From: Actinopolyspora halophila DSM 43834
GTDB lineage: Bacteria; Actinomycetota; Actinomycetes; Mycobacteriales; Pseudonocardiaceae
Reading direction: 5' to 3'
DNA: 64,000 nucleotides
NCBI RefSeq assembly: GCF_000371785.1
Contig: NZ_AQUI01000002.1
Location: 3,265,276 to 3,329,275 of the forward strand
Part shown: in pieces, positions 8,422 through 33,554 of the stretch
Position numbering within the stretch: the stretch's first letter is position 1
Layout of the letters: every line of letters starts with the position of its first letter
Notes under the pieces: model-generated
Told to the model about the DNA's origin: nothing
Databases searched by the model: none
Seen by the model: the letters and a program-made list of their open reading frames with translations, nothing else
Program-made: the position numbers and the translations under genes

Positions 8422-8943
8422 TCAGGAGTCCGCGGCCGCGGACTCCTCCGAGCCGGACCCGCGGTCCACGAGAGGAGCCAGCGCGGCGTGGCCACGGTCG
8501 AGGCACTCCCGGAACACCAGGCGCTCCCCCGGGTTCATCGAGTCGAGCACGCGCCGCTCGAGGACGTCGACCAGGGGAGCGCAGGTGGCCACGAGCTCGT
8601 GGCCACGCCGGGTCAGGCTGATCAGCAGGACGCGGCGGTTGGTCTCGTCGCGCCTGCGTTGCACCAGCTCGTGCCGCTCCAGCCACCGCACCATCTCGTG
8701 CATGGTCTGCGGGGTCACGAACGAGCGCCGCGCGAGCTGCGCCGAGGACAGTTCCCCGCGCCGTTCCAGCACGGTCAGCGCGGTGTACTGCAGCGTGGTC
8801 AGGCCGTGCGGGCGCAGCGCGTCGTCCATGAGCGCCCGCGCGACCATCTCGAGCCGCTTGACCAGGTACAGCGTCAACGGCGCGTCGGCATCGGGCGAGC
8901 CGTGGCCGTCGTCGTCCTCGGCGTGGTCGGTCACGCGGTTCAT
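8422..8943 (-). CDS. MarR-family regulator of the hydroxycinnamate operon
   Basis: This 173-residue protein has a winged HTH: ALRPHGLTTLQYTALTVLER, then the recognition region AQLARRSFVTPQTMHEMVRWLERHELV and the wing RRRDETNRRVLLISLTRRG. It lies upstream of ech-fcs in the same direction. Identical-arm operators in front of ech and in front of itself point to local control of ferulate use plus autoregulation (inference). The start is ATG 8943 after GGTGA. The same reading frame stays open upstream into the neighbouring PPOX gene, so a longer fused product cannot be excluded. Confidence 0.88.
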   Translation of the reverse strand: MNRVTDHAEDDDGHGSPDADAPLTLYLVKRLEMVARALMDDALRPHGLTTLQYTALTVLERRGELSSAQLARRSFVTPQTMHEMVRWLERHELVQRRRDETNRRVLLISLTRRGHELVATCAPLVDVLERRVLDSMNPGERLVFRECLDRGHAALAPLVDRGSGSEESAAADS

Positions 8944-9004
8944 CGTGTCACCCGTCCCGACCGGGCTCCGCTCCGGCCGGGACGACTCGCCCCGACCGGT
9001 TTTA

Positions 9005-9019
9005 ATCAGGACCCCTGAT
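9005..9019. promoter_or_regulatory. MarR operator upstream of marR
   Basis: ATCAGG-ACC-CCTGAT has the same two arms as the site at 8318-8332 and lies 62 bases above the marR start. It sits inside the run-on reading frame that leaves the broken PPOX gene. Confidence 0.75.
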
Positions 9020-9060
9020 GGTTCACTGCGGACAGTCGCACCCGGAGACGGCCTCCGTTC

Positions 9061-9530
9061 CCCGAACCAGGAGTCCACGAGGTGCGGCGGGAACCCGCCG
9101 GTGGCGATCGGCCCCCAGTCCTCGATCTCGACGCGGATCAGGGACTTGCCCTGCCGGGCCATCGCCTCCCGGTACTCGGCCCAGTCCGGGTGCTCGCCGG
9201 AGACGCAGCGGAAGTAGTCGACGAGCCCGTCCAGCGCCTCCGGCATGTCCAGCACCCGGGCACGGCCGTCGACCTGCACGTACGGCCCGTCCCACTCCTC
9301 GGAGAGCACGCAGATCGACCCCCGGGATCGCGGCGGGCGTTGCGGGCCTCGGCCCGCTCCGGATAAGTGGAGACCACGATCCGCCCCGCGGGGTCGACCC
9401 CGCAGGTCACCGGCGACATCTGGGGACGTCCCCCGGAGCGGGTGGTCGTCAGGATTCCGCGATGACGTGGACGCAGGAACTCGAGCAGCGCGTCCCGATC
9501 GACGCGCTCGGCAGTGGCGATGCGTGGCAT
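9061..9530 (-). pseudogene. PPOX-class F420-dependent enzyme, frameshifted and lacking its stop
   Basis: The N-terminal half (from ATG 9530: MPRIATAERVD, LRPRHRGILTTTRSGGRPQMSPV, VVSTYPERAEARNARRDP) and the C-terminal half (VLSEEWDGPYVQVDGRARVLD, ARQGKSLIRVEIEDWGPIATGGFPP) are both typical of actinobacterial pyridoxamine-oxidase-fold proteins that bind F420. They lie in different frames. One extra base in the CCCCCGGG run at 9319-9326 accounts for the shift. After the normal family C-terminus no stop is met, and the frame continues in phase through the operator at 9005 into marR. It is either a decayed gene or a sequencing indel plus a real extension. Confidence 0.75.
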
Positions 9531-9782
9531 GAACTCACTGATGCTTTCTGTGCGAATCGTCGTGCACGGTCTCCGGGACGCGGGCACCACCGCGACCGGG
9601 TATGTCCGATGTGGACGGACAGTGTGGGGCGAACTGTCCGGGCTGAGAGCTCGCGCGGATTGGGCGAGCACCCGCTCGGTCGGGCCGGTTGCCGGACGAG
9701 CGGTGAAGCCGTTTTCCCCCTGCGCACCCGGCCCCGCCTGCCCCTCGCGGAACCACCCGAGCCGGGCCAATCCGCGCACTCG

Positions 9783-10559
9783 CTAAGGCCCGGTCGCGAG
9801 CTCCTCCTCGAGGTCCTGCGCCACGTCTCGCAGCGTGCTGACCAGCTTCGGCAGGCACCGCCGGTCGTAGCGCACGCTCGGCATCGAGACCGACATCCCG
9901 GCCGCGAACGTGCCGTCGTGGTCGCGGACCGGGATGCCGAGGGCCACAACCCCGCGCTCGGAGCGGCCGTGATTGACGGCGAACCGGTCGCGGCGCACGC
10001 GGGCCAACTCCGCCCGCAGCCGTGCCGGATCCGGTCGCTCGTCGGGGTGGTCCGCGCTGCTGTCGGCCGAGCAGACGCGTTCTGCCTCGTCCGGCGGCAG
10101 CGCGGCGAGCAGCAGCATCCCCGCTGTCGTGCGGTGGACGGGAAATACCATGCCCTCGCGGTTGCCCACCCGGAGAGCACGCGGACTCTCGACGCCGGCG
10201 ATGAACCTGATCGTGTCCCCGGTGCGGACGGCGAGGTTCGCCGATTCACCGAGCAGGTCGACCAGCCGGTGCAGGTGGGGCAACCCCGCGGATCGCAGAC
10301 GTGCGGCATGGGACGGGGAATGGGCCGCGAGCTCGACCACGGGTCCGGCGCGGTAGCGGTGCTGGTCGTCCTTCACGGCGAAGTCGCGGTACACGAGCAT
10401 CGCGAGCAGCCTGTGCGCGGTGGACCGCGCGACCCCCAAGCGCCGGGCGATCTCCGAGACGGTCAGCTCGCCTTCCAGCTGCAGCATGGCGGCGATCCGC
10501 AGCGCGTGGTCGACGCTGCGGATCGTGTAGTGCGGAGGATTCTTCTGGATCTGCTCCAC
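9783..10559 (-). CDS. IclR-family transcriptional regulator
   Basis: This 258-residue protein has an N-terminal winged HTH (RSVDHALRIAAMLQLEGELTVSEIARRLGVARSTAHRLLAML) and an IclR effector domain with HPYTAG-region equivalents (VHRTTAGMLLLAALPPDE) and a GVVALGIPVRD segment. The GTG at 10559 is preceded by GGAG seven bases away. It follows the CocE-type hydrolase gene by 106 bases in the same direction, so it may be co-transcribed with it and control it or the nearby aromatic genes. The effector is unknown. Confidence 0.87.
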   Translation of the reverse strand: MEQIQKNPPHYTIRSVDHALRIAAMLQLEGELTVSEIARRLGVARSTAHRLLAMLVYRDFAVKDDQHRYRAGPVVELAAHSPSHAARLRSAGLPHLHRLVDLLGESANLAVRTGDTIRFIAGVESPRALRVGNREGMVFPVHRTTAGMLLLAALPPDEAERVCSADSSADHPDERPDPARLRAELARVRRDRFAVNHGRSERGVVALGIPVRDHDGTFAAGMSVSMPSVRYDRRCLPKLVSTLRDVAQDLEEELATGP

Positions 10560-10665
10560 GTCGATCGCTCCAGTACGTTCCGCTCCACCGAACCGCACCC
10601 TCGCACGCCTGGTGGTGGACACGCCGGACAGGTGACGAGCTGCCGCCGGAGCACCCGCTCCGCAC

Positions 10666-12393
10666 CTACTCCTTCCCCGCACCGCGCATCGTGAACGGCA
10701 GGACCAGCCGGGAGGGGTGGGCCGCGTCGCGGTAGATCTTGTGGGTGACGGGACGGCCCACCGGCAGGTGGAAGGCGTCCGGAGGCAGCAGCGAGTTGTG
10801 CTCGTCGGACAACGGCTCGGCGTTCGACAACTCCACAATCAGACGGTGACCGGGCCGGAACGTCGCCGCGAACGGGTAGAGCCGCAGCACGTACTCCTCG
10901 ATCCTGCCGGGCTCCACCGGCACGGCGCGGGTGTGCGGGTGGTACGGGTTTCCCTCGGTGGTGCGCTCGTCGAGCTCGCGGTGCGAGGCCTTGAGGTATC
11001 CGGTGGTCACCAGCCTGCGCGAACCGTCGGGAGCTGAGTCCCACATGCGCAGGACGAAGTTCGTGTCGTCCTGGTCGATCTCGGCGAAGACGTGCGCGGC
11101 CCCCGGGCCGATCAGTTCGGTGTCCTCCTCGAACGGCGCGGTGGACCAGCTCAGGATCTCGACCTTGTCGGTGACCGTCAGCGGCGCCTGGTAGAAGCCG
11201 TCCGGTACGGCCTGCTCCACCCCCATGGCCTCGGGCTCGAACGAGAGAGCGCGCCGCGGGCGCAGGTACAGCGACCGGTGCTCCACCTCCCGCGGCGGCC
11301 ACTGGCCGCCGGTCACCCGCTCGCGCGATCCCTCGACGAAGACCGTGACCGCGGGCTCGTCCAGCACACCGTTGTCGATGCCCTTGAGCCAGTAGTCGTA
11401 CCACCGGAACATCTTGTCGTGCTCCTCGACGAAGGGGCGCGACTGCATCGGCGGGTAGGAACCGATGTCGAGCTTCTTGGGTCCTTTCAGGGTGTTGAAC
11501 AGCTCGATCGTGCCGTCGAGCGTCCAGCCGCGTCCCTGGTCGATCTGCAGGTGGACGGGGATGTCGATGTTCTTCGCCAGGGTGATGGGATTGCGCTCCT
11601 CGTACCACTCGCCGTCGAGCTCGTTGAGCACGATGTCGAACCAGAGCTCGCGGTTCTTCGGGTACTTCAGCACGTGGACCAGGTTCGGCCACGCGGCCAC
11701 GTCCGGATCCGCCAGCCGCTGCTCGACCAGCCTCTCCAACTCCTCCGGGGAGTGCTCCGCCTGCATGCGGGACTTGACGTTCGTCTGCGCGATGCCGGAG
11801 TCGCCGCCGCGCCCCTCGCGGGCGGCGCGCGGCATGAACCACATGACACCGCCGTGGTAAGTGGTCTCGTAGAAGTCGTAGTGACCACCGCTGACGAAGA
11901 TCGCCTTCAGGTGCGGGGGACTCTCGGCGGCGGCGAGCACCTGCACGGACCCGAAGTAGGAGATGCCGATCATGCCGACGTTGCCGTCGCACCACGGCTG
12001 CTCGGCGACCCACTCGATGAAGTCGTAGGCGTCCCGTCCCGGTGAGACCCCGCCCGCGTTGTAGTTGCCGATCATCTCGCCGCCCGAGTCGCCGGCCCCG
12101 CGCAGGTCGCCGATGACGTGGACGTAGTCCTGCCCGACGACGCGCGCGATGTCGCCCGCCTCGATGCAGCCGTCCCACATCGGACTGGGGCGGCGCTGCG
12201 GCGGCGTGGTCAATGCCAGGGACTGCAGCTCCTTGCCGTACGGGCTCAGGGCCACGAGCGCGGGACGCGGTCCGTCCTCGACTCCGTGGTAGGCGTCGGC
12301 CACCAGCGTGACCCCGTCACGCATCGGCACCCGGAGGTCCTTGCGGACGGCGATCGGCTGCCCACCCGCGTCCAGCGTCCGAAAATCAGCCAT
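10666..12393 (-). CDS. CocE/NonD-family serine hydrolase
   Basis: This 575-residue alpha/beta-hydrolase has the peptidase S15 layout. A catalytic domain carries VPMRDGVTLVADAY, GDLRGAGDSGGE and the nucleophile motif GISYFGS. A helical cap follows (about residues 180-330), then the C-terminal jelly-roll domain (about 390-575, with EIDQDDTNFVLRMWD and FRPGHRLIVELSNAE). Relatives cleave esters such as cocaine or glutaryl-7-ACA, or Xaa-Pro peptides. Here an ester or lactone catabolic role fits the neighbouring hydrolases. ATG 12393 lies behind AGGAG. It is divergent from the MBL-hydrolase gene, with a shared AT-rich control element between them. Confidence 0.85.
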   Translation of the reverse strand: MADFRTLDAGGQPIAVRKDLRVPMRDGVTLVADAYHGVEDGPRPALVALSPYGKELQSLALTTPPQRRPSPMWDGCIEAGDIARVVGQDYVHVIGDLRGAGDSGGEMIGNYNAGGVSPGRDAYDFIEWVAEQPWCDGNVGMIGISYFGSVQVLAAAESPPHLKAIFVSGGHYDFYETTYHGGVMWFMPRAAREGRGGDSGIAQTNVKSRMQAEHSPEELERLVEQRLADPDVAAWPNLVHVLKYPKNRELWFDIVLNELDGEWYEERNPITLAKNIDIPVHLQIDQGRGWTLDGTIELFNTLKGPKKLDIGSYPPMQSRPFVEEHDKMFRWYDYWLKGIDNGVLDEPAVTVFVEGSRERVTGGQWPPREVEHRSLYLRPRRALSFEPEAMGVEQAVPDGFYQAPLTVTDKVEILSWSTAPFEEDTELIGPGAAHVFAEIDQDDTNFVLRMWDSAPDGSRRLVTTGYLKASHRELDERTTEGNPYHPHTRAVPVEPGRIEEYVLRLYPFAATFRPGHRLIVELSNAEPLSDEHNSLLPPDAFHLPVGRPVTHKIYRDAAHPSRLVLPFTMRGAGKE

Positions 12394-12462
12394 GAGCGTG
12401 CGGCTCCTGTTCAGCGTTCGAGTAGCAGGCGTATCCCCGGCGGACACGCCTTCCGATACCCA

Positions 12463-12490
12463 GTTTAAACATATTATTATGTTAAAGTTG
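12463..12490. promoter_or_regulatory. AT-rich promoter/operator element, copy 1
   Basis: A 28-base AT-rich element stands out in very GC-rich DNA. It contains AACATA-TTAT-TATGTT (12468-12483), a perfect 6-base dyad. Aligned without gaps to 18331-18358, 23 of 28 positions match. It lies between the divergent CocE and MBL hydrolase genes, 70 bases above the CocE start. It may be a promoter, an operator of the GntR or IclR protein, or both. Confidence 0.65.
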
Positions 12491-12601
12491 GCGGGCAAGG
12501 CCCGTCGTCGGCGTGGTCCACGCGCGGCACTGGCACGATCGGCGGCGCAGCCGGCGGTCATCGAGCGAAAACCGTCCCCGGCGAGCGGAGGAGCCACAGC
12601 G

Positions 12602-13558
12602 ATGACGCACGACGTCGACATCCACCCCCTGGTGTCGCCGTGGGGACGTTTCGGCCTCCACAGCTTCTTCATCGACGCGCCCGAGCCGGCCATCGTGGAC
12701 ACCGGGATCGCCTCGTCGCCCGCCGACGGGATGGTGCCCGCGCTCGAGGAGCTCGGCCGCGACATCGCGGAGGTGCGCTGGATCCTGCTCACCCACGGCC
12801 ACATCGACCACCTCGGTGGAGCGCACGCCCTGTGGGAGCTCACGGGACGACGCGCCCGGATCGCGCTGCACCGGACCGACGCGCACCTGCTGCGCTCGCG
12901 GCGCGCGCACGTCGACCAGTACGTCCGGGTGCGGCAGCAGTACCTGAACGATCCGGACGGCGTGGCCAAGCAGACGAGGATGGCGGAGGAGGCCATCTCG
13001 GGCGAGCTGGAGCCGACCGTGCCGCTGCGGGGCGGCGAGACCCTCTCCCTCGGCGGGGACGTCTCCGTGTCCGTACACCACCTGCCGGGGCACACGGCCG
13101 GATCCGTGGGCTACGTCGTCAACGGGCGGAACGCGGTCCTCGTCGGCGACGCCGTGCAGATCCACGGTGCCGCCAACGGATTCCCCGGCTACGAGGACCC
13201 GGACTCCTACCGCGCGAGCCTGCGACACCTGCACGACGAGATCCGCCCGCGGGAGCTGTACCTGGGCCACCCCTACCGGAACGCCGACGGGGTGGCCTAC
13301 GACGTCGCGCTGGACGGCGCCGAGGCCCGCCGGGCCCTGCGGGAGAGCCTGGACGTCGAGGCCCGGATCGACGACGCCGTCCGTCGGTACCTGCGCCCAG
13401 CCCCGCCGGAGACGGACTCGGTGTACTCACCCTTCGCCCCGGTGGCCGAAGCGCTCGGCTACACCGGCGACCCCACGCTGGAGCCGTCCCCGTTCTTCAC
13501 CACGCTGCACGGCTACCGCAGCAAGCTCGACGCGGTGAAGACCGACCGCTTCGACTGA
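12602..13558 (+). CDS. Metallo-beta-lactamase-fold hydrolase
   Basis: This 318-residue protein has the MBL signature THGHIDHLGG (HxHxDH), later metal residues in HHLPGHTAGSVGY and VLVGDAVQI, and a C-terminal helical region. Such enzymes act as thioesterases, lactonases or glyoxalase-type hydrolases. The ATG at 12602 follows GGAGGAG at a nine-base distance. The reading frame is open far upstream but without family similarity. It is transcribed away from the CocE hydrolase gene and ends at a hairpin terminator. A lactone or thioester substrate is an inference from context. Confidence 0.85.
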   Translation: MTHDVDIHPLVSPWGRFGLHSFFIDAPEPAIVDTGIASSPADGMVPALEELGRDIAEVRWILLTHGHIDHLGGAHALWELTGRRARIALHRTDAHLLRSRRAHVDQYVRVRQQYLNDPDGVAKQTRMAEEAISGELEPTVPLRGGETLSLGGDVSVSVHHLPGHTAGSVGYVVNGRNAVLVGDAVQIHGAANGFPGYEDPDSYRASLRHLHDEIRPRELYLGHPYRNADGVAYDVALDGAEARRALRESLDVEARIDDAVRRYLRPAPPETDSVYSPFAPVAEALGYTGDPTLEPSPFFTTLHGYRSKLDAVKTDRFD

Positions 13559-27054: not shown

Positions 27055-29511
27055 TCACGACCGGTTCTGGTGGTTGTGCATGATGTGTTTGGTGCGGGAG
27101 TAGTCGTCGAGGGCGTAGAGGGACAGGTCGCGGCCGTAGCCGGATCCCTTGAAGCCGCCCCAGGGGAGTTCGCTGGCCAGCACGAGGTGCGAGTTGACCC
27201 AGACGGTGCCTGCGTCGAGGCGGGCGGCCAGGGTGTGGGAGCGGCGTGCGTCGTCGGTCCACACGGAGGCGGCCAGGCCGTAGGGCACGGCGTTGGCGCG
27301 ACGGATGGCCTCGTCCTCGTCGGTGAAGGTCTCGACGGTGACCACGGGGCCGAAGACCTCCTCGCGGGTGATCTCGGCGTCGGCGGGCACGTCGACCAGC
27401 ACGGTGGGGGCGATGAAGTAGCCGGGTCCGTCGAGCGCGTCGCCGCCGATGGCGGCGCGGGCGCCGTCCTGTTGTGCGCGGTGGAGGTAGCCCAGCACGC
27501 GGTCGTAGTGGGCCTTGGAGACCACGGGGCCGAGTTCCACGTCGCTGCCGGCGCGGGGGTCACCCACGGTCAGGGTGCTGACTTCGCCGACCAGGTGCTC
27601 GACCAGCTGGTCGGCGACCGATTCGTGGACCAGCACGCGGCAGCCCGCGCCGCACTCCTGGCCGGAGTTCCAGTAGCCGGCCGTGCGCAGGGCCGAGGCC
27701 GCCGCGGCCAGGTCGGCGTCGGCGCACACCACCACGGGGGCCTTGCCGCCGAGTTCGAGGTGGACGCGCTTGAGGTCCTCGGCGGCGTTGCGGGCCACCG
27801 CCCGGCCGCTGCCCACCGAGCCGGTCAGCGCCACCATCTGTACGTCGGGGTGTCGGGAAAGCCGGTCACCGACCACGTCGCCGTAGCCGGTGACGATGTT
27901 GACCACCCCGGCGGGCAGCAGGTCGGCGACCAGCTCGGCGAACTTCAGCGTGGTGATCGGGGTGTGCTCGGAGGGTTTGAGCACGAGGGTGTTGCCTGCG
28001 GCCAGGATCGGGGCGATCTTCCAGGCGGCCATCATCAGCGGGTAGTTCCACGGGGTGACCACCCCGATCACCCCGAGCGGTTCACGCTGGATGACCGACA
28101 GGTGCTCGTCGACGTAGTCGCCCGCGGCCATGGAGGTGCTCGCCCGGACGGCCCCGGCCATGAACCGGAACGAGTCGACCGTGCCGGCGACGTCGTCGCG
28201 GGCGACCTCGAACGGTTTGCCCGTGTTGGCCGCCTCGAGCGTGGCGAGCAGCTCGGCGTGCTCGGCCACGCGGTCGGCGATCGCGTGCAACACGTCCGAA
28301 CGGTCCTTGGGCACCCTGCGTGCCCACGCGGACTGGGCCGCGCTCGCGGCCGAGACCGCACGATCCACATCAGCCGCCGTCCCGTTGGGAGCCTGGAACA
28401 GCACCTCTTCCGAGCACGGATCGACCACGTCGATGCCCCGCCCCGAGGCAGGCGCCACGAGCGCACCGTCCACGAAGTGCCGCCCCGGCGGGAAACTCGC
28501 CGTCACACCCCACGACGGCGCCCCCCTGGCGCGGTGAACCGCGGCCGTTCCAAGGCCCACAGCCGTTCCGGCCCCGGCCGTTCCGAGAGCCGCGGTCTTT
28601 CCGGAGCCGACCGAGCCGGACGGGGAATCCGGTTTCACCGTGGCCAGGTGCGCCGAAATGTTCTCGGCCGCGGCGACATCGGTGTCCAACAACGGCTTGC
28701 GGGTACTCCCGCCCGGCAAGCCCAACGCGTTCAGGGCCGTTTTGATCGCCGGGATGAACGGCACGGACATCATCGCGTCCATCAACGGATAGATCCTCGA
28801 CCACTCGGCACTCGCGCGCTCGGAGTCACCGGCGCGCAGCGCGCGGTGGACGGAGGCCAGCTCGGCCGGGATCACGTTCGCGGTACCGGCCACGACACCG
28901 GCGGCCCCCTCTGCGAGCGCGGACAGGACCAGCAGGTCCCAACCGACGAACGTGGAAATGACGTCACCGTGGTGGTGAATCAACTGCCCCACCTGCGACA
29001 GGTCGGCGCTGGTGTCCTTGATGTAGCGGATGTTGTCGACCTCGCGGGCCAGCTGCCCGACCATCTCGGGCGAGAGGTTCACCCCCGTGGCCCCCGGCAG
29101 GTTGTACAACATCACCGGAACATCGACGCTGCCCGCCACCGTGCGCAGGTAGTGCAACGTCTCGTCATGGGTGAGCGGCTCGTAGTACGGAGCCACCACC
29201 ATCACCACCGAAGCACCCACCTCCTGCGCGTGCCGCGACAGCTCGATCGCCTCGTTGGTGCTCAACGCACCGGTCTGCGCCACCACCGGCACCCGTCCGG
29301 CAGCCTGATCAACCACCGTCTCCACGACCAGACGGCGTTCCGCGTTGCTCATCGCGGCGAACTCACCCGTCGACCCGCACGCGACGAGACCATCGACCCC
29401 GCCCGCGACACTGTGATCGACCAAGTGACGCAAACCAGGCACATCGATCTGCCCGTCCGTCGTGAACGGGGTGGAAAGAGCGGTGAGAATACCACTCAGC
29501 TGTGACGACAT
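27055..29511 (-). CDS. DapA-family aldolase/dehydratase fused to aldehyde dehydrogenase
   Basis: One 818-codon frame joins two complete enzymes. Residues 1-290 are a DHDPS/NAL-family TIM barrel with CGSTGE (45-50), the catalytic Tyr136 in LYNLPGATGV and Schiff-base Lys165 in RYIKDTS. Residues 345-818 are an aldehyde dehydrogenase with TPWNYP, the NAD motif GSVGSG, general base E586 in LELGGK and nucleophile C620 in NSGQECGAG; its end (LPWGGFKGSGYGRDLSLYALDDYSRTKH, in two parts) is like aminobutyraldehyde dehydrogenases. A Gly/Ala/Thr-rich linker spans about 292-343. The aldolase could release an aldehyde acid that the dehydrogenase oxidises, as in the alpha-ketoglutarate semialdehyde routes. 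A GTG at residue 336 might allow the dehydrogenase alone. Confidence 0.88.
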   Translation of the reverse strand: MSSQLSGILTALSTPFTTDGQIDVPGLRHLVDHSVAGGVDGLVACGSTGEFAAMSNAERRLVVETVVDQAAGRVPVVAQTGALSTNEAIELSRHAQEVGASVVMVVAPYYEPLTHDETLHYLRTVAGSVDVPVMLYNLPGATGVNLSPEMVGQLAREVDNIRYIKDTSADLSQVGQLIHHHGDVISTFVGWDLLVLSALAEGAAGVVAGTANVIPAELASVHRALRAGDSERASAEWSRIYPLMDAMMSVPFIPAIKTALNALGLPGGSTRKPLLDTDVAAAENISAHLATVKPDSPSGSVGSGKTAALGTAGAGTAVGLGTAAVHRARGAPSWGVTASFPPGRHFVDGALVAPASGRGIDVVDPCSEEVLFQAPNGTAADVDRAVSAASAAQSAWARRVPKDRSDVLHAIADRVAEHAELLATLEAANTGKPFEVARDDVAGTVDSFRFMAGAVRASTSMAAGDYVDEHLSVIQREPLGVIGVVTPWNYPLMMAAWKIAPILAAGNTLVLKPSEHTPITTLKFAELVADLLPAGVVNIVTGYGDVVGDRLSRHPDVQMVALTGSVGSGRAVARNAAEDLKRVHLELGGKAPVVVCADADLAAAASALRTAGYWNSGQECGAGCRVLVHESVADQLVEHLVGEVSTLTVGDPRAGSDVELGPVVSKAHYDRVLGYLHRAQQDGARAAIGGDALDGPGYFIAPTVLVDVPADAEITREEVFGPVVTVETFTDEDEAIRRANAVPYGLAASVWTDDARRSHTLAARLDAGTVWVNSHLVLASELPWGGFKGSGYGRDLSLYALDDYSRTKHIMHNHQNRS

Positions 29512-29616: not shown

Positions 29617-31002
29617 CTATTCGGCGACTGCGCTCCCGGAAGAGGCCTTGGAGGCCTGCCGTTCGGTGGCCAGGAGGCTCTGGGCCTCCTGCGCGGCCGA
29701 GAAACCGGTTTGGATCGCCGTCTCGCTGTAGAGCGTGCCGAGGTAGTCGCCTGCCAGGAACACCCGGCCGCCACGACGGGTCAGCGTCTGTTGCAACTTC
29801 CCGCGGCCCGGGAAGCAGTAGGGCGCACCCGTGGGCCAACGTTGCACCTGCGTCTCGACGACCTTGTCGGCGAAACCGGGCAACGTCTGGTCCAGATCGG
29901 ATAGATAGGTCCGGCGGATCTCCTCGTCGTCGCGCTCGAGCAGATCGCGCGCGAGGCTGCCCGGCGAGAAGGTCATGATGCTGCTACCGGGCTGACGTTC
30001 CGTCTCGAGAGCCCGCGCGATGTTGGACATGTTCAACGCGATGTTGAACGACCGTTTCGGCGTCGCGATGCCGTAAGCGTCGTCCCAGACCTGACGCTCG
30101 GTCTCGTCGGTGAGGAACGCCGCACTCACGTAGGGGCCGTAGACCACCTTCGACAGCGCCTCGCGCACATCGGGATCGAGGTCGACCGCGACTCGGTGGC
30201 TGACGGTCGCAGGCGTGGCCAGCACCACGCAGCGCGCCTCGACCTCCTTCTCGACCCCGTCCTGGCGGTACCGGACCACGGCCGACCCGTTCTTCTGAAC
30301 GATCTCCTCGACCGTCGAGTTCAACTCGACCCGGTCGGACAGGGCAGCGGATATGCTTTCGGTGAGCGTGGCGGGGCCACCGAAAACGCTCCGCGAGAGG
30401 CCGCTGCCGATGTTCCACACGAGACTGAAGTAGCCGACGCCGGCACCGGCCGAGATCTCGTCGATGTCCGCGGAGGAACGGGTCACGGTGGGTTTGAACA
30501 GCGCTTCGGCGTCCTCGGGCAGGTCACCGAGGAAATCGGAGAAGCTGCGGTCGTTCATGAAGTTGTAGACCCGTTGCTGCCGCGCGCTCTCGTCCTCCCC
30601 GGGGCGCAGTCGGACGGTTCTGGCGTACTTGGCCACGGCCAAGCCGACCTTGGCCCCGGCCTTGAGCACTCCGAGACGAGCGGACCACGACATGGGGATC
30701 CGGAACGGATAGCTCTCCACGCGCCCCTTCAGCAGGAGCTTGCCGTTCATGGCCAGCCCGGCCAACGAACCCGGTACCTCCATCGAATCGATACCGGTGT
30801 CCTCGAGCAACCGAGACGTTGCCGAGTTTCCGCCCGCGAAGACGTGCGCTCCCCAGTTGAGCCAGTACGGTCCACGGCGTTCCGAGCGAATACGCCCGCC
30901 GACCCGCTCCTCCGTCTCGAGCAGGATCGAGTCCCAGTGCCTCAACCGCCACGCGGCCGCCAGACCTGCAATGCCGCCTCCAACGATGACGACGTCTTTC
31001 AT
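29617..31002 (-). CDS. Flavin amine-oxidase/protoporphyrinogen-oxidase-like FAD protein
   Basis: This 461-residue FAD protein starts [19 protein letters not shown] and continues ETEERVGGRIRSE, then ends with the flavin motif GGRVFLAGDYLGTLYSETAIQTGFSAA. The overall length and order fit the NAD(P)-binding amine-oxidase superfamily. The normal haem-pathway PPOX neighbours are missing, so an amine or cyclic substrate is more likely. It sits 105 bases upstream of the aldolase-aldehyde dehydrogenase fusion in the same direction, which suggests it supplies an aldehyde to that protein (inference). ATG 31002 follows GGAAGG. Confidence 0.8.
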   Translation of the reverse strand: MKDVVIVGGGIAGLAAAWRLRHWDSILLETEERVGGRIRSERRGPYWLNWGAHVFAGGNSATSRLLEDTGIDSMEVPGSLAGLAMNGKLLLKGRVESYPFRIPMSWSARLGVLKAGAKVGLAVAKYARTVRLRPGEDESARQQRVYNFMNDRSFSDFLGDLPEDAEALFKPTVTRSSADIDEISAGAGVGYFSLVWNIGSGLSRSVFGGPATLTESISAALSDRVELNSTVEEIVQKNGSAVVRYRQDGVEKEVEARCVVLATPATVSHRVAVDLDPDVREALSKVVYGPYVSAAFLTDETERQVWDDAYGIATPKRSFNIALNMSNIARALETERQPGSSIMTFSPGSLARDLLERDDEEIRRTYLSDLDQTLPGFADKVVETQVQRWPTGAPYCFPGRGKLQQTLTRRGGRVFLAGDYLGTLYSETAIQTGFSAAQEAQSLLATERQASKASSGSAVAE

Positions 31003-31670
31003 CGGTACAGCCTTCCTGAGAGTGGTTGCAACTGTGCTGCCGGACTTCACGAAGAGAGCGGTCGCGAGGTCACCCGCTGCACAGCAGAGCGACGCGAGAT
31101 TGCGGACAACCCCGCTGAAGGTTGTCTCGCGATAGCCGGGCGTGGTCCCGCTCAGACGAGGGAAACTGTGGACAGCGCCCCAACCGGGCCGGATCGCACC
31201 GCTCACGGCGTCCACACCCTGTCGGCACGCCGTGAGCGCACCGCCCTCGGTCGGGCTCGGACTCTCCCGTCCACATGACCTTTCCCCGAACATGCCGGGA
31301 CCGGATCCGCACTACACCGAGTGGACGGTCAATGGCGAGACGGCGTCGACGATTGCCTGTCGCCGGTCGGATCGTTCACAACAACTCCTGCGAATGCCTG
31401 CCCCCGCGGAGACTCAGCCGCCACACCGTCCGTCGATCGCGGAGCGGGCCCCGCCGGGCCGGAGGTGCGCTGTTACCGAGTCGTCCAGCCGGAGGGCTGT
31501 TACTACGTCTACTACGTCGAAACGAACTCGCGGTTTTCATGGGTGCCGACGGCGCAGCCGACGGTTCGTCGAGGAAGTATGAGCACGTACCGGTTCGTCA
31601 ACAATATCCCTGCAGTCTCACCGGGCACGGTGCTTTTGGTGAGGCAAAAATTCATCCACACTGGGATCCC
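31003..31670. other. Divergent control region with a possible small ORF
   Basis: 668 bases separate the FAD protein from the fused regulator. A plus-strand frame from 31321 to 31674 could encode 117 residues (ending NNIPAVSPGTVLLVRQKF plus five more), and its stop overlaps the next ATG as ATGA. It has no recognised domain and no clear ribosome site, so it is only a candidate. The stretch 31500-31670 is noticeably richer in A and T than its surroundings and probably holds promoters for both directions. Confidence 0.35.
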
Positions 31671-33554
31671 ATGACCGGACAATCCCGCAACGCGGTGATA
31701 CTCACCGACAGCGAACGTGCCACGCTGGTGAGCTGGACACGGAGCCGCAACCGCTCGCGAGCGGCGGTCCTGCGAGCGCAGATCGTGCTGGCCTGCGAAC
31801 AGGAGGCCACCAACACGGCGGTGGCGGGCGAACTCGGGGTGTCCGTGGACACGGTGCGCAAGTGGCGTCGCCGGTTCATCGCCGAGCGTCTCGACGGTCT
31901 CACCGAACGACATCGCTCGGGGCGCCCTCCGAGCACGGGCGAGGACACGATCACCCAGGTACTCGTGCGTCTCCTGGGACCGGCTCCCACCGGACGCCGT
32001 TGGTCGACTCGCGCCATGGCCTCGGCAGTCGGCACGAGCCAGAAAGCGGTGAGCCGCATCTGGCGCAAGTACCGGATCCAGCCGACACAGCGAACCCCGG
32101 TCCCGGAGCACGCGGGTCGGGCTCGGCTGCCGCTCCGGATCCACGACGTGGCCGGGTTGTTCCTCGACCCTCCCACACGTGTACTGGCCGTTACCGCGGA
32201 CGCGGACGCTCCTTCCCCGCAACAACAACCCACCACGGCGACCATGCATCGGCGCACCGCGGAGGCCCGGGAACTGTTCGCGGTGGCGAACGCGTTCTCC
32301 GAGGTCAACAACGGCACGCAGCAGCACGATCGAGCCGCCGATGACACAAGGCTGCGGGCCTTCCTGGACAGCCTCGACCGCAGCGTGCCCGCGAGGATGA
32401 CGATCCATCTCCTCGTCGACGGCCCGAGCTCCACCGAGCACGGCACGACGGGGCAACGGCCGGGAGAGCACTCGCGGCTCCGCTGGCACACCGTTCCCCC
32501 GCAGGGGTCGTGGCTCGACGAAGTCGACGTGCTCCTGGCGCACAACCCGTTGCCCAGCAATGAATACGTGCTCGGCTTCGGAGCCTCACTGGCCGGGCTT
32601 CGCGAGGAACTCCGCACCTGGTGTGACACGTGGAATCCGCCAGGTCCCCCTTTTTCCTGGACGAAGAGCCCGCGGTCGCTCTGGAGAGGCGACCACGATT
32701 ACCGCGGACTTACTAATGACTCAAATTCCGGCAATGCACCCCGTGTTCGGACGCCGGAGACCGACGGTCAACGGCCGCACGGCGACACGCAGGCCTCCAC
32801 CTCGGGGACGACTCGGGTCGCCGACCACGTCGCCCAGCTCGTTCGAGAAGCGCTTGCCGGCGGCCGGTTCAAGCCCGGCGAACGAATCAAGGAAGCCCCG
32901 CTGGCGAACAGGCTCGGTGTCTCCCGGGGGCCGGTACGTGAGGCCCTGCGCGTACTCGGCGAAGAAGGAATGCTCGAGCTGCTGCCCAACCGCGGGGCCG
33001 CCGTTCCGCACATGAGCACGACCAGCATCCTCGACCTGTACGCGTCGCGCGCCTCCTTGGGCGGCTTGCTGATGCGACGCATGGCCATGCACCCTCGCTC
33101 GTCCCTGGGCGCAGTGAGCTCGGCGCTGGCCGAGGTCCAGCACGTGGCCAGGAACAACGATCACGCACGTATCGGCGAAGCCGATCTCCACTTCCAGGAC
33201 ACGATAGCGCGAACGGCGAACCTGCCCCAGACGGGAGTGATCTTCGAACGCCTGAGCATGCGCCTACGCATGTTCAACGCTGTCCTTCGGCTGGACTGGG
33301 CCGAAGCCATGGACCTCATCGCGCACGAGAACTCGGGCATCCACGACGCGATCCGCAACGGGGACGGCAACGAAGCCGCCCGACGCTGGCGCGTGAAGAT
33401 CGAACGCAGCGTCCGCTACATGGTCGCCCAACTCCCCCAGGACCACTTCGACCTGAATCTCTGGGTCACCATCGCCGGAAAACCGGATCCCCGCCCGGGT
33501 GATCCGCGCAACGCTCACGCCGGCGCCGGTTCGCCCCCGCACACCGACACGTGA
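31671..33554 (+). CDS. IS630-type transposase-derived domain fused to a GntR/FCD regulator
   Basis: One 627-codon frame. Residues 8-135 match the IS630 transposase N-terminus (LTDSERATLVSW, AQIVLACEQEATNTAVAGEL, VSVDTVRKWRRRFIAERLDG, WSTRAMASAVGTSQKAVSRIWRKY). Residues 158-335 follow the IS630 DDE domain but are worn: D177 remains in TADADA (usually VDEKS), D250 in LLVD, and the last Glu is D286 (WLDEVD); the conserved NYxTH is lost. Residues 382-445 are a GntR winged HTH and 450-590 an FCD domain. The GntR part has no in-frame ATG, GTG or TTG close before it, so it depends on the upstream part. This looks like a domesticated transposase now used as a DNA-binding regulator. Confidence 0.85.
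   Translation: MTGQSRNAVILTDSERATLVSWTRSRNRSRAAVLRAQIVLACEQEATNTAVAGELGVSVDTVRKWRRRFIAERLDGLTERHRSGRPPSTGEDTITQVLVRLLGPAPTGRRWSTRAMASAVGTSQKAVSRIWRKYRIQPTQRTPVPEHAGRARLPLRIHDVAGLFLDPPTRVLAVTADADAPSPQQQPTTATMHRRTAEARELFAVANAFSEVNNGTQQHDRAADDTRLRAFLDSLDRSVPARMTIHLLVDGPSSTEHGTTGQRPGEHSRLRWHTVPPQGSWLDEVDVLLAHNPLPSNEYVLGFGASLAGLREELRTWCDTWNPPGPPFSWTKSPRSLWRGDHDYRGLTNDSNSGNAPRVRTPETDGQRPHGDTQASTSGTTRVADHVAQLVREALAGGRFKPGERIKEAPLANRLGVSRGPVREALRVLGEEGMLELLPNRGAAVPHMSTTSILDLYASRASLGGLLMRRMAMHPRSSLGAVSSALAEVQHVARNNDHARIGEADLHFQDTIARTANLPQTGVIFERLSMRLRMFNAVLRLDWAEAMDLIAHENSGIHDAIRNGDGNEAARRWRVKIERSVRYMVAQLPQDHFDLNLWVTIAGKPDPRPGDPRNAHAGAGSPPHTDT

Follow-up and report, generated by a model that had tools for sequence, protein, structure and literature searches.

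In eukaryotes, the DNA-binding domain of a transposase has been captured in the PAX, SETMAR and KRAB cases, and in bacteria, TldR descends from TnpB. Transposon-derived transcription factors are known from animals (PMC10027918), and an F-box-transposase fusion joins a Tc1/mariner-type domain in frame to a host domain (PMC12062965). TldR proteins are RNA-guided bacterial regulators (PMC13418256). For the IS630 family, the N-terminal domain of the ISY100 transposase, which contains two helix-turn-helix (HTH) units, binds the terminal repeat (PMC2170065). In animals, transposase capture is well established as an origin of transcription factors. Here we describe a bacterial case in which much of the evidence is still present and the element also supplies a candidate operator. 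The gene was found in a window of 64,000 nucleotides, the whole stretch of DNA analysed, from Actinopolyspora halophila DSM 43834, and we read it as a domesticated IS630 (Tc1/mariner-type) element. Among the titles and abstract starts listed in searches of open-access papers, we found no earlier description of this fusion or its kind.

The fusion resembles each of these systems in part. With the IS630 and Tc1/mariner transposases (e.g. ISY100, PMC2170065) it shares a bipartite N-terminal HTH, DDE remnants, the core of the inverted repeat and a left repeat near the start codon. Unlike them, it has lost at least one catalytic acid in 17 of 19 family members, the outer repeat is absent, the stop is lost, and GntR and FCD domains are added. 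Like the FadR/FCD regulators of the GntR family (2hs5, PmiR 7xp0, McbR 4p9f), it combines a GntR winged HTH with an FCD domain, has a TTGTnnACAA-like box near a divergent gene and is linked to a catabolic cassette, but it has in addition a transposase-derived N-terminal arm of about 380 residues with two more HTHs. As in the eukaryotic capture proteins (PAX, SETMAR, KRAB and F-box), a Tc1/mariner-type DNA-binding domain stands in frame with a host domain; here, in contrast, the host is bacterial, the partner is GntR/FCD, and both ends of the element can be traced, one of them within the coding frame. TldR is likewise a bacterial transposon protein turned transcription regulator, but it is an RNA-guided TnpB relative rather than a DDE transposase with HTHs on a host regulator.

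The coordinates of the locus are listed in Table 1. The fusion frame is open over its whole length, as the initial annotation had said. Its start is the ATG conserved in the family, and the mechanical ORF extends to 31275. The HTH pair of IS630 type was recovered by three Pfam families, all above cut-off (HTH_28 at residues 35-85, HTH_29 at 35-88 and HTH_32 at 61-131), and the GntR and FCD matches exceeded their cut-offs of 27 and 24.3 bits in the same frame, in agreement with the domain order proposed at the outset. No DDE family of Pfam matched the fusion protein at E 0.1, and the NCBIfam IS630 model NF033545 scored 93.3 bits on residues 35-283, below its cut-off of 100. The N-halves of the fusions can be aligned with 46 intact IS630 frames, and the three aspartates in which a worn DDE domain had been recognized fall on the catalytic columns of the intact transposases, D286 standing where these have E. 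There is no in-frame ATG, GTG or TTG in codons 331-390, and codon 300 is the last ATG or GTG ahead of the GntR helix. Therefore, the GntR part has no nearby start of its own, as had also been noted.

Table 1. Features of the fusion locus (positions are those of the window)
Feature	Position	Strand	Description
Fusion gene	31671..33554	+	IS630-type HTH1-HTH2, degenerate DDE domain, linker, GntR HTH, FCD domain; 627 aa
IS630-type bipartite HTH region	31671..32090	+	codons 1-140; Pfam
Degenerate DDE (RNase H-like) domain	32118..32690	+	codons 150-340; D177, D250, D286 at catalytic columns
Linker, transposase-derived part to GntR	32691..32813	+	about codons 341-381
GntR winged HTH	32820..33005	+	codons 384-445; PF00392, 58.2 bits
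FCD ligand-binding domain	33033..33392	+	codons 455-574; PF07729, 33.4 bits
Box A, conserved GAAGTATG	31564..31585	.	about 97 nt before start codon
Box B, degenerate TTGTnnACAA palindrome, here TCGTCAACAA	31595..31604	.	GntR-operator-like
Box C, fossil left terminal inverted repeat TGAGGCAAAAATTC	31640..31653	+	31 nt before start codon; 15.4 bits, shuffle P 0.004
Fossil right terminal inverted repeat TTACTAATGACTCA	32710..32723	-	read T-N-D-S in linker; 19.1 bits, best of whole gene, shuffle P 0.002
Divergent FAD oxidase gene, presumed target	29617..31293	-	profile matches, surroundings search
DHDPS-family aldolase + aldehyde dehydrogenase, presumed target	27055..29511	-	one 818-aa frame

Residues 381-589 of the structure model aligned with 2hs5 (Z 21.3, 207 residues aligned, rmsd 2.8), and the best 50 matches listed per search for the full model were GntR-type proteins. 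The N-half model (pLDDT 76.4, pTM 0.64) has seven helices between residues 13 and 133, the HTH region, followed by a reduced DDE part with strands at 157-166, 169-176, 244-250 and 270-274 plus helices. In the linker of the fusion protein, pLDDT is mostly below 50. With the N-half model, Foldseek gave no match at E 0.001 and VIA-align a Z of at most 6.2 among the matches listed, and these searches do not demonstrate the DDE fold. The HTH region gave weak matches to PAX6 (Z 5.6, rmsd 12.7), SETMAR-TIR (Z 5.3, rmsd 12.2) and Mos1 (Z 5.3, rmsd 12.8); PAX6, SETMAR, Mos1 and Tc3 lie among tied rows at Z 5.1-5.6 with rmsd above 12, level with unrelated proteins. When the PDB was searched by sequence with the N-half, SETMAR was matched at E 0.0019 and ranked below an eIF2 chain at 7.1e-5.

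The genome of A. halophila holds one full-length fusion copy: of the 24 matches that a search of it returned, 19 are to the GntR half, four are IS630-like with 31-36% identity, and one is the fusion itself. The fusion was not found in the nine other genomes of the genus that were searched. Using two peptide patterns, we scanned contigs for relatives of the GntR half, a scan that could miss unfused relatives without those patterns, and kept 80 of the 132 that it found. Eight of these have at least 50% identity to the GntR half across almost the full query: Saccharopolyspora subtropica, S. hirsuta, S. spinosa, S. oryzae, Streptomyces sp. LHD-70 (two contigs), S. fulvoviolaceus and Streptomyces sp. 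CB02414. Fusion status was checked in these eight close loci of the 80, and all eight are fusions; among the remaining 72, any match of more than about 115 residues has at most 34% identity. Nine of 390 genomes of the family matched at E 1e-35, all nine with the fusion frame; S. subtropica belongs by taxonomy to Pseudonocardiaceae, the same family as the genome of the window. Nine of 295 genomes of one genus, which we took as Streptomyces, matched at E 1e-30, with five intact fusions, two genes whose N-terminus is lost or replaced, and two fragments. The initial annotation had called for homologues with the same domain order and had allowed that these might always be two separate genes. They are not: the order is kept in one frame in all eight close loci, all nine family genomes and five of the nine in the 295-genome set. 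In total we obtained 19 fusion members including the window, the 18 further genes coming from other assemblies (Saccharopolyspora, Streptomyces and other genomes), and none of the 19 has a stop between the transposase and GntR parts. The second LHD-70 fusion gene on the same contig is counted among them. Left out were a broken second S. subtropica copy (L067/L225), G1158 (L209/L218), G1092 (L211/L220), G1073 (L214/L223) and G1198 (L215/L224). In Streptomyces sp. LHD-70, two of the fusion genes lie tail to tail on L117, at 8855-10717 (+) and 11408-13252 (-), each with a divergent MFS gene of its own, and a third lies on another contig (L121). Plasmid NC_013856.1 of Azospirillum sp. B510 carries an IS630 transposase near a gntR gene (445051-447946) as two annotated, unfused genes.

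Quick trees of the two halves point to a single origin. In the N-half tree, the transposase halves of the fusions are separated by one branch from 22 of the 46 intact IS630 frames, used as outgroup (96*), and in the GntR-half tree, the GntR halves are separated by one branch from 33 other GntR proteins (99*). In the N-half tree, G1284 and G960 sit on very long branches, and the rows of G119 and G112 are odd in composition. Seven of eight subgroups are common to both trees: window/S. subtropica/S. hirsuta, S. spinosa/G1048, G1161/LHD70a, G1061/LHD70b/G1231/G1260, LHD70c/S. fulvoviolaceus, G119/G112 and G1284/G960. The remaining subgroup, S. oryzae/CB02414, carries a star in the N-half tree and is unresolved in the GntR tree. 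Since both halves are monophyletic and seven of the eight subgroups recur, these trees indicate that all 19 members descend from one old fusion event. A captured transposase should have its DNA-binding domain joined in frame to a host domain and conserved in that state; the 19 members and their matching trees display this.

Both ends of the ancestral element could be traced as fossils. Intact IS630 copies typically start with CTAGTGTCCTGAGTCGTTAATTCG and end with GAATTAACGACTCAGGACACTAG, and a repeat matrix was built from 40 inner 14-mers of IS630 ends. In the 200 nt upstream of the start codon, the best match fell at -29 to -32 in 18 of the 19 members (at -14 in StrG1284); when 400 nt were scanned, it fell at -26 to -34 in 18 of 19. 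Single-sequence shuffles gave P ≤0.05 for the left scans in 16 members, 15 of them among the 18. At the right end, a reverse-oriented match in the linker stands in one codon phase in 17 of 19 members; it is the gene-wide best match in 14, which share one codon phase, and reached P ≤0.05 on shuffling in 10 of the 19. With 500 column-permuted matrices, the left count was at most 10 (true matrix, 18) and the right count at most 13 (true matrix, 14), these counts being not independent as the members are related. The matrix scan found no right fossil in StrG1284 and AmyG960 and no significant left fossil in AmyG960. Only the inner parts of the two repeats were seen, rather than complete terminal inverted repeats with a TA duplication, and inspection by eye showed no outer left-repeat part (CTAGTGTCC) upstream of box C. 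For comparison, the left end of the IS630 copies in the same genome reads TGAGTCAGTAGTTTG, and box C in StrG1061 reads TGAGTCAGAAGTTCG. The initial annotation had suggested looking for terminal repeats, and neither fossil had figured in its own reading.

The single codon phase of the right fossil can be explained from intact IS630 frames, 41 of 46 of which extend across the right repeat of their element. Their stop TAG lies in CTAG, and they mostly end in I-N-D-S-G-H-TAG or a variant within the repeat. The N-D-S of many fusion linkers is the former C-terminus of the transposase. The serine of the right repeat, present in 16 of 19 members, is encoded by the rare codon TCA in nine; TCA accounts for 34 of all 686 serine codons of the 19 genes, those nine included. 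This excess fits selection on the DNA itself, and shared descent may also explain it. A separate observation comes from genome G030 (L082 886-2769; G030:C1:5968770-5970026), where an IS630 frame with VDEKS passes its right repeat into a downstream ORF, which we take to be kinase-like. A sister copy (L093) has a stop at that point. G030 shows the same fusion route at an early stage.

The catalytic site decayed. In the 46 intact frames, the catalytic columns hold D in 46, D in 45 and E in 45, the first by construction, since the frames were picked by a VDEK/VDET motif, and several places occur twice among them. The corresponding counts in the fusions are seven, four and five of 19, and the D,D,E triad is absent from every one of them. 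The window and S. subtropica alone keep three acidic residues (D,D,D), and in the window the D-D spacing of 35 is kept as well; loss of catalysis is less certain in these two. Selection on the remaining parts was quantified by pairwise Nei-Gojobori omega in 11 chosen pairs, the linker being defined in 10. The median was lowest for GntR (0.17, range 0.09-0.24), followed by FCD (0.19, 0.09-0.33), HTH2 (0.22, 0.11-0.43), HTH1 (0.35, 0.10-0.74), the DDE part (0.50, 0.40-0.61) and the linker (0.65, 0.22-1.13). High GC may depress synonymous rates, so the relative values are more telling than the absolute ones. HTH1 is under less constraint than GntR and lies near the DDE part in some pairs. The motif W-S-T-R..A...G.S-Q is invariant across 10 aligned members, and the most divergent two of the 19 deviate in it. 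These ratios indicate purifying selection on GntR, FCD and both HTHs, with HTH1 the least constrained. The dN/dS comparison over the transposase part that the initial annotation had asked for fits the extra DNA-binding arm that it envisaged: HTH2 is constrained about as FCD, HTH1 less, and DDE is relaxed. As would be expected of a captured transposase, the DNA-binding part is under purifying selection and the triad is absent.

The region upstream of the fusion gene is conserved too. Boxes A, B and C recur in 15 aligned upstream regions, with box B degenerate in several and box C composed of the fossil left end and a TAC--T stretch. The alignment left out StrG1161, LHD70c, StrG1284 and AmyG960. 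A model of the 15, which matches these by construction, found StrG1161 and LHD70c in part (E 2.4e-6 and 0.002), and did not find StrG1284 or AmyG960 at E 0.5. Box A is perhaps the divergent promoter. We take TTGTnnACAA to be the GntR-operator consensus, and the promoter readings of the boxes likewise rest on consensus sequences. We also considered whether box A repeats box C in inverted form; by eye, the two have only a short TTCGC-TAC resemblance, and we do not claim it.

We searched 10-12 kb on either side of each fusion with nine query families. The nearest upstream catabolic match is divergent in 18 of 19 loci: MFS in 10, OYE in five, and FAD oxidase, DHDPS and proline racemase in one each. 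In LHD70c there is no divergent cassette gene, and another transposase gene stands upstream. Counted over the loci of the 19 members, LHD70a and LHD70b sharing one contig, the surroundings contain MFS in 13, OYE in 12, ALDH in nine, DHDPS in eight, FAD oxidase in seven, proline racemase in six and SoxB in five. The DHDPS, ALDH, FAD oxidase, OYE, proline racemase and Sox genes may point to N-methylated or hydroxylated proline-type compounds. In the window, the homology of the FAD oxidase to its L217 relative ends 668 nt before the fusion start; therefore, its true start is probably inside the ORF given in Table 1. DHDPS and ALDH, which stand in one frame in the window, are separate, adjacent genes in L217, L219, L221, L117 and L115, so that the window frame is a second fusion in the cassette.

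These observations suggest a simple route. An IS630 copy would have landed immediately 5' of a gntR/FCD gene or within its start. The normal IS630 frame would then have run through its own right repeat and stopped at the TAG formed by the target TA and the next G, that is, at a stop supplied by the CTAG of the insertion site. Loss of this one stop would have joined the transposase frame to GntR; the fossil of that junction is observed, and the order of events is our reconstruction. The left repeat and the start region would have been carried along and now lie just 5' of the fusion start codon, while the catalytic triad decayed and GntR, FCD and the HTHs were retained by purifying selection. 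As for function, we consider it probable, judging from sequence and gene order, that the fusion protein acts locally as a ligand-gated transcription regulator, with its own gene and the divergent catabolic genes as targets. In such a regulator, the FCD domain would sense a pathway metabolite, the GntR HTH would bind the central palindrome of box B, the IS630 HTH pair would bind the fossil left end in box C, and the protein would control both the divergent genes and itself. Regulator and operator would then have been born together from one transposon, which is testable. A bolder variant, which we regard as rather improbable, is a frozen, ligand-gated transpososome. The HTHs would hold the left fossil at the promoter and the right one within the coding sequence, about 1.07 kb apart, as the transposase once paired the ends. 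Box B, lying between the divergent promoters, would be occupied by GntR, and a ligand of FCD would open the complex. In this variant, the HTHs might also bind the ends of resident IS630 copies in trans.

The main alternative is that the GntR/FCD part works alone, with the transposase part as a tolerated leftover, spacer or dimerisation module and box C as promoter only. We judge this unlikely. The relaxed DDE part and linker and the intermediate HTH1 agree with it, as does PsG112 (L205, fusion gene 9398-10960, -), which is without the HTH1 core in an otherwise open frame. Box C adjoins a -10-like stretch just 5' of the start codon, and, as it is placed where a promoter is expected, it may be conserved for the promoter alone. 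Moreover, G1158 and G1092 keep GntR after loss or replacement of the N-terminus; however, their remaining frame is without the family start and may be decayed. Against a leftover speak the omega of HTH2, which stands near that of FCD, and the motif that is invariant in the 10 aligned members.

The two remaining explanations concern the origin and mobility of the gene. A still mobile element, with transposase activity or targeting under GntR/FCD control, would be consistent with the three acids and D-D spacing of the window, with D,D,D in two of 19 members and with relics of further copies. We nevertheless hold this to be very improbable in view of the loss of at least one acidic residue in 17 of 19 members, the outer left repeat missing by eye upstream of box C and the one full-length copy in the genome. 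Still less credible is a recent, functionless read-through, or an assembly error, of IS630 beside gntR. A fresh read-through of such kind does exist in G030, yet the 19 members have matching trees, purifying selection and a conserved start with upstream boxes. The fusion is not a chance event or an assembly slip, because 18 further genes in other assemblies carry it, which rules out a recent chance fusion or misassembly.

Candidates for an extra operator in trans were matched by the upstream model at L225 13098-13222 and L216 19553-19436, and we rejected them, as both look like relics of deleted fusion genes. In S. subtropica L225, at about 13090-13450, the apparent relic consists of the upstream boxes, the left repeat and the gene start, then remnants of the right repeat and GntR, the middle of the fusion gene being gone. 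On L216 (19436-19553, -), the upstream boxes occur with no fusion gene; next to them are a GntR gene and a seemingly decayed cassette.
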